From Alphaproteobacteria bacterium (GTDB lineage: Bacteria > Pseudomonadota > Alphaproteobacteria > CAAHEQ01 > UBA3637), in NCBI GenBank assembly GCA_028696805.1, contig JAQVGI010000003.1, positions 1-40,359 on the forward strand: 40,359 nucleotides of DNA, written 5' to 3'. The position numbers were made by a program, and so were the translations under genes. This document shows, piece after piece, positions 33,733 through 36,548 of this stretch (positions are counted from its first letter, which is position 1; each line of letters opens with the position of its first letter). Under the pieces are notes generated by a model. It was given only the letters and a program-made list of their open reading frames with translations, was not told the origin of the DNA and searched no databases.

Positions 33733-34100
33733 TCAGTTCAAAATCTTGGAAATATGATACTCGTGGTGCCACTCCCCGTCGATGCAGGCCGCGTCCCGGG
33801 CGATGCCCTCGATTTCGAATCCGCATTTCAGGTAAAGGGCGATCGCGCGGTAATTCTTATGCCGGACCTCCCCGAATATCCGGTGCAGGCGCTTTGCCCG
33901 CGCCCATTCTTCCAGCAGCGCCATCAGGCGCGTTCCCAATCCCTGCCCGTAATACGCCTTCAAAAGCATGATGCCGAACGACGCGCCGACGCCGCCCCAC
34001 GGATGCTCCGGCTTGAAAATATGGAGGCCAGCGATTGAAACCAGCTTGCCGCCAGGCGATACGCAGAAAAACTGGCCCTCTGGCGGGAAGAGGTGTTGAA
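33733..34100 (-). pseudogene. GNAT acetyltransferase, 5'-truncated
   Basis: The C-terminal two thirds of a GNAT domain are readable: QFFCVSPGGKLVSIAGLHIF, then GIMLLKAYYGQGLGTRLMAL (acetyl-CoA loop with QGxG) and KNYRAIALYLKCGFEIEGIA. The frame is open upstream only to a stop at 34147 and has no ATG/GTG/TTG before the internal Met at 33969. The first roughly 50 residues of the domain are missing, and the upstream sequence switches to AT-rich at about 34100. A short protein from 33969 (78 residues) could be made but would lack half the fold. It looks interrupted by the AT-rich insert. Confidence 0.72.
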
Positions 34101-34199: not shown

Positions 34200-34937
34200 A
34201 TGATTCAAGATAAGCTGTCGTCCGATAATTGTTTTTTTTGTGATAATAATAAATTTTATCAGGTTAAGAAACTTGAAGAAATAAGTTCAAAATTTTATGA
34301 AACTAGCGAGATTTATGGAAATGAACATGGAATGACGAGCTTTGATGATATTTATGGAGCAAAAATATGGAAAACTTATCAAGAAGAAGTTATCCCTTTA
34401 ATCAAATTGGCTAAAAAAATTAAAGCAACTGCAATTTGTTTTACGGGATCTTCTAACCTTCCTTATGATGCTATATTTAAATTATCAAACAACACTCTTC
34501 AAAAAATTGAATGTGTAACAACGATAGATGGTTATCTGGGAGATCTGGAACATGAAGTCTATAAAAGAGGAGAAGTAGTATTACGTGGGCCACATACAGG
34601 AAGTGATGGGTTTTGCAAAAGTTATGGAATAACAGGCACTAAAATCAATAGAAAAATGAGGGGATATAATGCCAACAATGAAGATCCCGAAGATAATATG
34701 ATTAACACAGAGCGTTATTGTGTTCAGGATATGAAAAGAATTCAAAAAAAGTTTTCAAAAAAATATAAAGGCTGTTGGCTTTTAGTAACAACAGACCATA
34801 TTCTCGCCCCCTATGAGAATGAGTTTCTCTCTGGTATAAAGAAAAGTATTAGAAACGCTTTCAATAATCCCTTTGAAAAAATCTTTTTATGTAATAAAGA
34901 TATTGGAAAAGAGTTTATTGAACAGATTTTTAATTGA
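34200..34937 (+). CDS. AT-rich orphan protein, unknown
   Basis: The 245-residue product starts at ATG 34200 with AGGAGA at 5-6 bases. It begins MIQDKLSSDNCFFCDNNKFY, with a CxxC pair that might bind zinc, and includes YGAKIWKTYQEEVIPLIKLA, TAICFTGSSNLPYDAIFKLS and RGPHTGSDGFCKSYGITGTK. The C-terminal half has KYKGCWLLVTTDHILAPYEN. It reads as a soluble alpha/beta protein, but I do not recognise a family. The AT-rich composition, unlike tyrS next door, and the broken GNAT gene on its left suggest recent insertion. Confidence 0.7.
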   Translation: MIQDKLSSDNCFFCDNNKFYQVKKLEEISSKFYETSEIYGNEHGMTSFDDIYGAKIWKTYQEEVIPLIKLAKKIKATAICFTGSSNLPYDAIFKLSNNTLQKIECVTTIDGYLGDLEHEVYKRGEVVLRGPHTGSDGFCKSYGITGTKINRKMRGYNANNEDPEDNMINTERYCVQDMKRIQKKFSKKYKGCWLLVTTDHILAPYENEFLSGIKKSIRNAFNNPFEKIFLCNKDIGKEFIEQIFN

Positions 34938-34993: not shown

Positions 34994-36199
34994 TTACCGG
35001 ACGACCTTGAAAAATCCGAGCTTGCCGATTTTCACTTCCAGCGGCGCGGAGACGTCCCAGCTTTGCCTTTCATCCGCGCATTTCACGCCGTTGACGCTCG
35101 CGGCATTCTGGGCGATCAGGCGCCTGATTTCGCCGTTGGATTTGCCTGGCATGCACGCCTTGACGATGTCAAACAACGCGGCCGGCGTTTTCCCGAGTGA
35201 AATCTCCGGCGCATCCGCGGGGAAATCTTTTTTGGAAAACGTATCGATGAAATGCGCGCGCGCTTTTTCGGCCGCGGCCGTTCCGTGGAAGATCTCAACG
35301 ATTTCCACCGCCGCGAACATCTTGGCGTCCCGCGGATTGCCCACGATATCCAGCGCCTCTATTTCGGCCAGCGGAATCCGCGTGTTCCAGCGCAGCAGCC
35401 GGTCTATCATCTCGTCGGGCATCGCCATGATCTGCCCGAACATCGTCTCGGCGCCGGTGTTCAGAAAAACGCCTATCCCGCGCGACTTCGACATCATCGG
35501 CTCGCCGGTCACCGGATGATTCATCAGCTGGGCGATCAGGCAGAACTTTTCCTTGCCCAGTTTCGTCTTGACGAATTGCCGCCCCAGCAGCGCGTTGAAA
35601 GTCTGATCCGTTCCGCACACCTCCACATCCGCATTCAGGGCGACCGAATCGAACGCCTGAAACAACGGGTATGAGAACTCGTGCAGGTGAACCGGCTTGT
35701 TCTCCGCGATTCGCTTTTGGAACATGTCGCGTTCAAGCATCCGCTGAACGGTCGTCTGCGACTGCAGCTCCAAGAACTCGGCAATCGTCAGCTTATCCAG
35801 CCAGGCGCTATTAAACACAATGTGCGGCGGATTGACGGCGGCGTCGAAATCCATCAGGTTCCGCACCTGGTTTATCCAATCTTTGGCATTGGCGATCGTC
35901 TGCGCGCGCGTCAGCGGCCGCCGCGCCGATTTTTGCGCGCTCGGGTCGCCGATGCAGGCGGTGAAATCCCCGAACAGGACGAAAACCTTGTGCCCCAGCT
36001 TCCTCAAATCCTCCATAACCATGAAGTTTTGAGCATGCCCCAGATGTAGCGCCGTATTCGTCGGGTCGAATCCGCCATAGATGTTCAGCGGGCGGGAGAG
36101 GGCTTCCCGGATGAAGGCGTCTTTCGTCGGCAAAACATCCACGATCAGCCCGCGGTCAAAAATCGCGTTTAATTGTTTCAATTGTTCAGAGGGTGTCAT
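34994..36199 (-). CDS. tyrS: Tyrosyl-tRNA synthetase
   Basis: The 401-residue product charges tRNA-Tyr. The class I HIGH motif is LHLGH in GGFDPTNTALHLGHAQNF and the KMSKS motif is MMSKS in GEPMMSKSRGIGVFL (first Lys replaced by Met). Tyr-binding region: FQAFDSVALNADVEVCGTDQ then TFN. The C-terminal S4 RNA-binding domain reads KSNGEIRRLIAQNAASVNGV. Start ATG 36199 follows AAAAAGGA at 6-7 bases. The upstream 200 bases hold a leader peptide frame and a two-state terminator, described separately, which would make expression depend on Tyr-tRNA supply. Confidence 0.93.
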   Translation of the reverse strand: MTPSEQLKQLNAIFDRGLIVDVLPTKDAFIREALSRPLNIYGGFDPTNTALHLGHAQNFMVMEDLRKLGHKVFVLFGDFTACIGDPSAQKSARRPLTRAQTIANAKDWINQVRNLMDFDAAVNPPHIVFNSAWLDKLTIAEFLELQSQTTVQRMLERDMFQKRIAENKPVHLHEFSYPLFQAFDSVALNADVEVCGTDQTFNALLGRQFVKTKLGKEKFCLIAQLMNHPVTGEPMMSKSRGIGVFLNTGAETMFGQIMAMPDEMIDRLLRWNTRIPLAEIEALDIVGNPRDAKMFAAVEIVEIFHGTAAAEKARAHFIDTFSKKDFPADAPEISLGKTPAALFDIVKACMPGKSNGEIRRLIAQNAASVNGVKCADERQSWDVSAPLEVKIGKLGFFKVVR

Positions 36200-36225
36200 A
36201 AAAAATCCTTTTTCAAAAATGTCGA

Positions 36226-36300
36226 TAAAAAAATCGGCCTTGCCTTTTATCCCTTAAAGTGCAAAGCCGATTGTTGTTTTTCGATCGAACACTTTAAGGG
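36226..36300 (-). promoter_or_regulatory. Transcription attenuator of tyrS (terminator / antiterminator)
   Basis: On the minus strand four arms follow each other. Arm 1 is CCCTTAAAGTG (36300-36290); arm 2 is AATCGGCTTTGC (36272-36261); arm 3 is CACTTTAAGGG (36261-36251); arm 4 is GCAAGGCCGATT (36243-36232), then a T-run to 36227. Arms 2:4 form a 12-bp Rho-independent terminator with a 17-base loop containing arm 3. Arms 1:3 form a perfect 11-bp stem enclosing arm 2, so the two states compete. The leader-peptide stop codon lies in arm 1. The arms and pairing are seen; the regulatory role is inference. Confidence 0.8.
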
Positions 36301-36383
36301 CGCATATAGCGATAGTAGGCGCAAACGCTCGCCTGCCCCGCAACAACCATACCCTCGAAAATATCCTGATGCATCTGCCTCAT
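36294..36383 (-). CDS. Tyr-rich leader peptide of tyrS
   Basis: The 29-codon frame ATG 36383 to TAA 36294 has AAGGGA 5 bases upstream. The peptide begins MRQMHQDIFEGMVVAGQASV and ends CAYYRYMRP. Three Tyr codons (TAC TAT CGC TAT) fall at codons 23, 24 and 26, shortly before the stop, which is inside arm 1 of the attenuator. A ribosome stalled at the Tyr codons would leave arm 1 free, forming 1:3 and preventing the terminator. A ribosome at the stop would cover arm 1 and let 2:4 form. A -10-like TATACT lies at 36406-36401. Too short for statistical proof, but position and content fit. Confidence 0.72.
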   Translation of the reverse strand: MRQMHQDIFEGMVVAGQASVCAYYRYMRP

Positions 36384-36503
36384 GTGTATCCCTTGGGGAT
36401 AGTATAGGCGCCACAAATCATCCTTTTCCCGCTCGCCGCCCACAAAAATCCGCCGCAGACCGCACGGATAACGGCCTCTCGCACCCTATCCTTAAAATAC
36501 AAA

Positions 36504-36531
36504 AAATCCTGCCAACGCAATGGCAAGATTT
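36504..36531 (-). terminator. Minus-strand terminator-like hairpin at the head of the Cys-rich gene
   Basis: On the minus strand AAATCTTGCCA-ttgcgt-TGGCAGGATTT followed by TTTTG-TATTTT: an 11-bp stem with one G-T and a T-run. It faces away from the plus-strand gene at 36549 and lies just in front of it. It may end an antisense transcript or be left from a gene that once occupied the DNA now to its right. Confidence 0.6.
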
Positions 36532-36548
36532 CCAAATGGTGGTGCAGT

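Follow-up and report, generated by a model that had tools for sequence, protein, structure and literature searches.

The window, that is, the whole stretch of DNA analysed here, comprises 40,359 nt of contig JAQVGI010000003.1 (GCA_028696805.1, positions 1 to 40,359) of an Alphaproteobacteria bacterium. Its minus strand carries tyrS2, a gene for a tyrosyl-tRNA synthetase (TyrRS), preceded by a short leader frame and a predicted terminator. From 5' to 3', the features are the following.

36401..36406, minus strand: candidate -10 element TATACT of a putative leader promoter (sequence reading; -35 weak)
36390..36394, minus strand: leader ribosome-binding site AAGGG (sequence reading)
36294..36383, minus strand: leader peptide ORF, 29 codons plus stop, C-terminus AYYRYMRP-stop, with counterparts in relatives
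36317..36334, minus strand: small hairpin P1, AGGCG/CGCCT, immediately 5' of the Tyr codons (covariation in relatives)
36312..36317, minus strand: control codons Tyr23-Tyr24 (TAC TAT), from the stall model
36290..36300, minus strand: arm A (CCCTTAAAGTG), overlapping the leader stop codon
36261..36272, minus strand: terminator 5' arm T5 (AATCGGCTTTGC), from sequence and folding
36251..36261, minus strand: arm A' (CACTTTAAGGG), perfect partner of A in the antiterminator pairing, in the terminator loop
36227..36243, minus strand: terminator 3' arm T3 (GCAAGGCCGATT, 36243-36232) with the T7 tract (36233-36227), from sequence and folding
36206..36210, minus strand: tyrS ribosome-binding site AAGGA (sequence reading)
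34994..36199, minus strand: tyrS2, auxiliary Patescibacteria-like tyrosyl-tRNA synthetase of 401 aa (PF00579, TIGR00234; HxGH and MSKS motifs)

The leader, a short ORF with clustered Tyr codons whose translation is predicted, reads MRQMHQDIFEGMVVAGQASVCAYYRYMRP from the ATG at 36383 to the stop at 36296-36294; its third Tyr codon lies at 36306-36308 (minus strand). An intrinsic terminator is predicted between this frame and the gene: its stem joins 36272-36261 to 36243-36232 through 12 pairs, one of them G-U, and its tract of seven T ends 27 nt before the tyrS ATG (36199). An earlier, sequence-only reading of this DNA had described the 29-codon frame with its ribosome site and AYYRYMRP ending, the stop codon lying within the first arm of a perfect 11-bp stem (A, 36300-36290; A', 36261-36251), and the partner arm in the loop of a 12-bp T-tailed terminator 27 bases from tyrS; all of these are present at the coordinates above. 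Frames with at least three Tyr in their last eight codons occur once in the window, against a mean of 0.1 in 40 shuffles; with an 11-nt arm over the stop codon in addition, the count is one against a mean of 0.0 (0/40 shuffles). The leader RNA also folds better than its shuffled versions (z = -3.7).

The same reading took the two folds to exclude each other. Exclusion itself is borne out, but it does not come from A' sharing bases with the terminator. Because A' lies inside the terminator loop, the A:A' and terminator arm pairs alone would merely cross, in pseudoknot order, and they share just 1-2 bases. In the folding model, the folds become mutually exclusive because the inner part of the antiterminator also pairs with the 5' terminator arm.

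A consensus promoter scan at the window leader found no strong promoter and no good -35. In most of the ruminant set of relatives described below, TTGACT/A and TATAAT, about 17 nt apart, stand at the matching place directly 5' of the leader, which suggests where transcription would begin. In the G423 order (L032-L041, L142-L146), the leader start codon follows the -10-like box by only ~8-14 nt; very little mRNA would then precede the start codon, and translation may be of a nearly leaderless kind. Upstream of the window promoter, a T-tailed hairpin of 13 pairs (36502-36533, minus strand) may shield the attenuator from incoming transcription.

Relatives were reached by a protein search with the window TyrRS. 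Three alphaproteobacterial lineages share this architecture in front of orthologous tyrS genes: the window, G111 and 15 genomes of the G423 order. G111, from a third order, has a TyrRS 64-66% identical, its gene being split over two contigs; its leader ends AYYYYIFP-stop and its terminator differs in composition. Orthologues of the G423 order are 55-59% identical and come from ruminant-gut metagenome-assembled genomes (L032-L036, L038-L041, L072). Their tyrS leaders have exactly 26 codons and end GFYYAY-stop; in the tyrS and leuS leaders shown for this order, the distance from the frame start to the CCC of arm A is 82 nt, free of indels. The arm pair has 12 bp (for example CCCCTTATGGTG/CACCATAAGGGG) and begins at the stop codon, and the terminator (ATTGGCTTTGG/CCAAAGCCAAT) is followed by a T tract.

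Across the three lineages, the leaders have little in common beyond a cluster of Tyr codons, the arm pairing and the spacing. Over 11-12 aligned sequences, A:A' is 97-99% paired, with up to 3 pairs changed on both sides. Its covariation score is reached by none of 500 shuffles and collapses in slid registers. P1 covaries as well, and terminator stems keep 9-10 of 10 pairs despite two-sided changes (U-A to C-G, C-G to U-A). The comparison that the sequence-only reading had proposed thus shows that distant relatives keep both the Tyr-rich frame and, through compensatory changes, the pairing. Tyr codons precede tyrS in the 16 genomes with a complete leader, and Leu codons precede leuS in G494.

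Covariance models built from the aligned leaders were used for a genome survey. In the G423 order they return 17 strong matches in 16 of 201 genomes, plus one case in G593 where the tyrS2 attenuator is cut by the contig end and the leader is thus not visible. Behind the 17 lie tyrS2 (14), leuS (1; G494, L146/L239) and a phosphodiesterase gene (2; G537 and G561). Each carrier genome has one strong match, or two in G561, always before one of these genes. The two attenuators of G561 (C3 and C9) serve tyrS2 and the phosphodiesterase separately; G591 holds two tyrS2 copies (C22 and C16). Of 385 genomes sampled evenly across the class, the model matches only the window genome and G111, and it gives no match in 153 genomes of the G427 order. 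Weak order-wide matches (E 0.1-0.9) look like chance, G593 excepted. Model search finds no attenuator at three close relatives of these tyrS2 genes (L002, L031, L037), nor does inspection by eye at L031 and L037.

Other origins and classes were considered for the element. We rejected inheritance of the leader from a Patescibacteria donor, as the nearest Patescibacteria are without a comparable leader, and a phage origin, as viral contigs gave neither a match to the attenuator pattern nor a tyrS2 relative. Plasmid copies were likewise dismissed: plasmid records hold only TyrRSs below 60% identity. A T-box, riboswitch or other Rfam family was rejected, with nothing at gathering score and only weak matches at chance level; in particular, neither a T-box domain nor a specifier loop has an Rfam match, and the element is not assigned to the T-boxes.

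The regulated gene is a divergent second copy beside a housekeeping synthetase. The window genome has a second tyrS at G000:C13:5726-6835, and every examined genome with an attenuated tyrS also has a housekeeping tyrS; upstream of the latter, no Tyr-rich leader was found in seven genomes. The tree unites the attenuated tyrS genes (100/100) with three alphaproteobacterial copies that lack an attenuator; their clade falls within the Patescibacteria TyrRSs and is separate from the housekeeping genes. The enzyme, which retains HxGH and MSKS, is therefore an acquired, spare TyrRS. The tree, built without G111, places the window with the attenuator-less copies (88/25) and does not fix the order of attenuator gain and loss within the clade. 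Since the attenuated tyrS is always a second copy, the control falls on an auxiliary synthetase and not on the essential one. The earlier claim of an attenuator controlling tyrS is to this extent amended: leader-peptide attenuation is supported, but its target is a horizontally acquired second copy rather than the sole tyrS. In G426 (L072:2501-3672), tyrS2 is broken behind an intact attenuator into two pieces in different frames, the second interrupted by stop codons; this would fit either a spare copy that can be dispensed with or an assembly error.

In one genome of the G423 order, G494 (L146), the element precedes leuS. Its leader, MKTKGTIFDNIFDNARFCAYVLRLSY, ends VLRLSY and carries TTG codons for Leu at positions 22 and 24; in the tyrS relatives of the order, codons 22-24 are Phe-Tyr-Tyr. 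Behind the terminator, 20 nt identical to a tyrS2 start (ATGAAAACCAAAGAACAAAT) persist, followed by leuS (TIGR00396, 816 bits), which is 80% identical to the leuS elsewhere in the genome. Leu codons before leuS, set against Tyr codons before tyrS, mean that control codons and synthetase switched amino acid together. At the level of sequence, this change of gene and codons demonstrates that evolution can reprogram the switch. It amounts to a natural experiment on codon specificity within one lineage and supports the evolution of attenuators by re-coding of one scaffold. No other single finding, though this one comes from one genome, speaks as strongly for the mechanism.

The element is also associated with a PF01663 gene (type I phosphodiesterase/nucleotide pyrophosphatase), found within ~20 nt 3' of tyrS2 in G423, G467 and G486. 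In G537 and G561, a PF01663 homologue stands alone behind its own attenuator copy, with a leader ending AFYCAY. No attenuator occurs in the upstream sequence examined for the phosphodiesterase homologues of G511 and G512.

In our model of ribosome stalling, the RNA is free from the base 13 nt past the start of the A-site codon onwards. In the window, arm A stays fully or almost fully free until the ribosome moves past Tyr24; at Tyr23 or Tyr24 it is fully free, at the third Tyr it is not. The idea that stalling at the Tyr codons frees the first arm hence holds for codons 23 and 24 but not for the third Tyr. Elsewhere, the freeing codons are the first or second Tyr (G111), Tyr23/24 (L032) and Leu22/24 (L146), the switch point of G494 being the same as in the tyrS leaders. 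With a ribosome at these codons, and before the 3' terminator arm is made, A:A' has a probability of 0.9-1.0. With the ribosome further along the leader or at its stop, the terminator forms with a probability of about 0.96-0.99 (window, G111, L032, L146), in agreement with the sequence-only reading, which had a ribosome at the stop masking the first arm and giving the terminator. Model and covariation together point to an antiterminator that excludes the terminator and has one arm masked by a ribosome finishing the leader. L141 behaves similarly, with an even balance at codon 25.

We conclude that the auxiliary synthetase is very probably controlled by ribosome-mediated transcription attenuation. 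RNA polymerase would start just upstream of the leader frame, with a ribosome following. When Tyr-tRNA is ample, the ribosome would reach the leader stop and cover arm A; A' would stay single, the terminator would form and transcription would end 27 nt short of tyrS2. When charged Tyr-tRNA is scarce, through tyrosine shortage or because the housekeeping TyrRS is inhibited or overloaded, the ribosome would stall with Tyr codon 23 or 24 in its A site. Arm A would then be free to pair with A' once A' has left the polymerase, the 5' terminator arm would be tied up in the inner part of the A:A' hairpin, and the polymerase would read into tyrS2. P1, next to the Tyr codons, is perhaps a pause hairpin.

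Some observations count against attenuation. The promoter of the window has a weak consensus, and the allied tyrS2 genes noted above do without the element. In L142 (G561), a free arm A does not keep the terminator from winning at equilibrium, and antitermination there would have to be kinetic. P1 is conserved and does not pair with arm A, and a possible 1:2 protector hairpin, as in classical four-arm (trp-like) attenuators, where it gives termination when the leader is not translated, is seen in the window RNA only. Lacking a conserved protector of arm A, unlike trp, an untranslated leader should give read-through; that it leaves arm A free also weighs against the reading.

Terminators before genes are common, and the element could be a constitutive terminator or an insulating hairpin pair upstream of tyrS2, its Tyr-rich frame being there by chance. 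This is most improbable given that the Tyr cluster, spacing and pairing are kept in three lineages with little else conserved, that Leu codons stand before leuS, and that shuffled sequences do not reproduce the arrangement. The near-constant GFYYAY terminus of G423-order leaders might instead speak for arrest by the nascent peptide or a ligand, as in TnaC and Erm leaders, rather than for Tyr decoding. The C-terminus nevertheless differs in the window (AYYRYMRP) and in G111 (AYYYYIFP), and is VLRLSY before leuS, and we give such arrest very little credence.

If attenuation is the mechanism, the minimal reading of its role is that of a back-up enzyme, presumably induced when Tyr-tRNA charging falls. 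Compatible with attenuation, and held here only tentatively, is an inducible resistance cassette against a natural antibiotic that acts on the housekeeping TyrRS or LeuRS: lowered charging would open the attenuator and yield an insensitive second synthetase, sometimes with a phosphodiesterase that could destroy the compound. Such an immunity role is hinted at by the second copy in every carrier of an attenuated tyrS or leuS, the foreign type of the TyrRS, and the PF01663 gene directly behind tyrS2 or its own attenuator. Precedents are TrpRS1 with indolmycin and IleRS2 with mupirocin (PMC9437257), and the AgnB2 LeuRS with agrocin 84 (PMC5059758). A further hint comes from attenuator-less tyrS2 genes in G427 (L233:124-5670) and G100 (L234:1760-6768), which share a conserved neighbourhood with genes for an anthranilate phosphoribosyltransferase-like (TrpD-like) protein, a Zn-dependent dehydrogenase, a TrpRS-like protein and a HIT hydrolase, with a HAD phosphatase in addition in G427. 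This looks like a small biosynthetic cluster for a compound of aminoacyl-nucleotide type, in which tyrS2 could possibly serve self-protection. Against resistance stand the absence of a known compound and the 80% identity of the auxiliary leuS to its housekeeping copy; a starvation back-up, or an enzyme discriminating D-Tyr as TyrZ does, fits equally well. The most far-reaching version seems rather unlikely to us: a reprogrammable cassette dispersed among gut alphaproteobacteria, re-coded for whichever auxiliary synthetase (Tyr, Leu) or phosphodiesterase it controls, and giving alarm and immunity against nucleotide-like antibiotics that target aminoacyl-tRNA synthetases. The linked phosphodiesterase and the biosynthesis-like cluster beside attenuator-less tyrS2 provide a lead to a synthetase-targeting compound in animal gut communities.

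Leader-peptide control of a synthetase is familiar from pheST of E. coli, where the codons of the enzyme's own amino acid likewise govern a terminator and an antiterminator. There, however, the synthetase is essential and single-copy, the codons are Phe and the arm layout is classical; tyrS2 is auxiliary and has Tyr codons in its leader. Nearest in logic, by analogy, would be trpRS1 of Streptomyces coelicolor, described as an auxiliary indolmycin-resistant TrpRS with an attenuator (Vecchione and Sello 2010; PMC4787780, PMC9437257). From the passages that describe it, it shares ribosome-mediated transcription attenuation of an auxiliary synthetase with a housekeeping copy elsewhere. The likeness is one of described arrangement. 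trpRS1 concerns Trp and Actinobacteria, whereas the tyrS2 element has in addition been converted to Leu codons before leuS and put to use in front of a phosphodiesterase gene. Nearest in target would be tyrZ of Bacillus subtilis, a second TyrRS described as controlled by a T-box and a MarR regulator (PMC9437257). Its expression, too, depends on tRNA-Tyr charging, but according to that description a T-box reads the tRNA directly, whereas the tyrS2 leader would be read by a ribosome and has no T-box match.

Leader peptides upstream of synthetase genes are further described for Streptomyces trpS and leuS (predicted attenuators; PMC1262725), the duplicated hisS*/hisZ of bacilli, with His leader peptides shared between paralogues (PMC2965389), and Caulobacter trpS, with a leader CDS upstream (PMC4117421). 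In the relevant passages of these sources, none of the systems is tyrS, and no swap of codons and gene behind one homologous element is reported. The sequence-only reading knew of no leader-peptide attenuator for tyrS in an alphaproteobacterium; the open-licence papers searched describe none for any tyrS, although Caulobacter trpS sets a precedent for a synthetase leader in the class. As far as that literature goes, no tyrosyl-tRNA synthetase had a leader-peptide attenuator before this one, which stands in front of what is probably an inducible, spare TyrRS of the Patescibacteria kind.

The surroundings of tyrS2 also deserve mention. Facing it end to end in the window is a 245-aa ORF (34200-34937, plus strand) with no Pfam match. 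Near tyrS2, at 33736-34005, lies the C-terminal half only of a GNAT acetyltransferase, an apparent remnant; in G111, the leader directly follows a GNAT acetyltransferase gene (L238:575-1105). Over 89 residues the two acetyltransferases share 48% identity, and GNAT and tyrS2 may have been transferred jointly.
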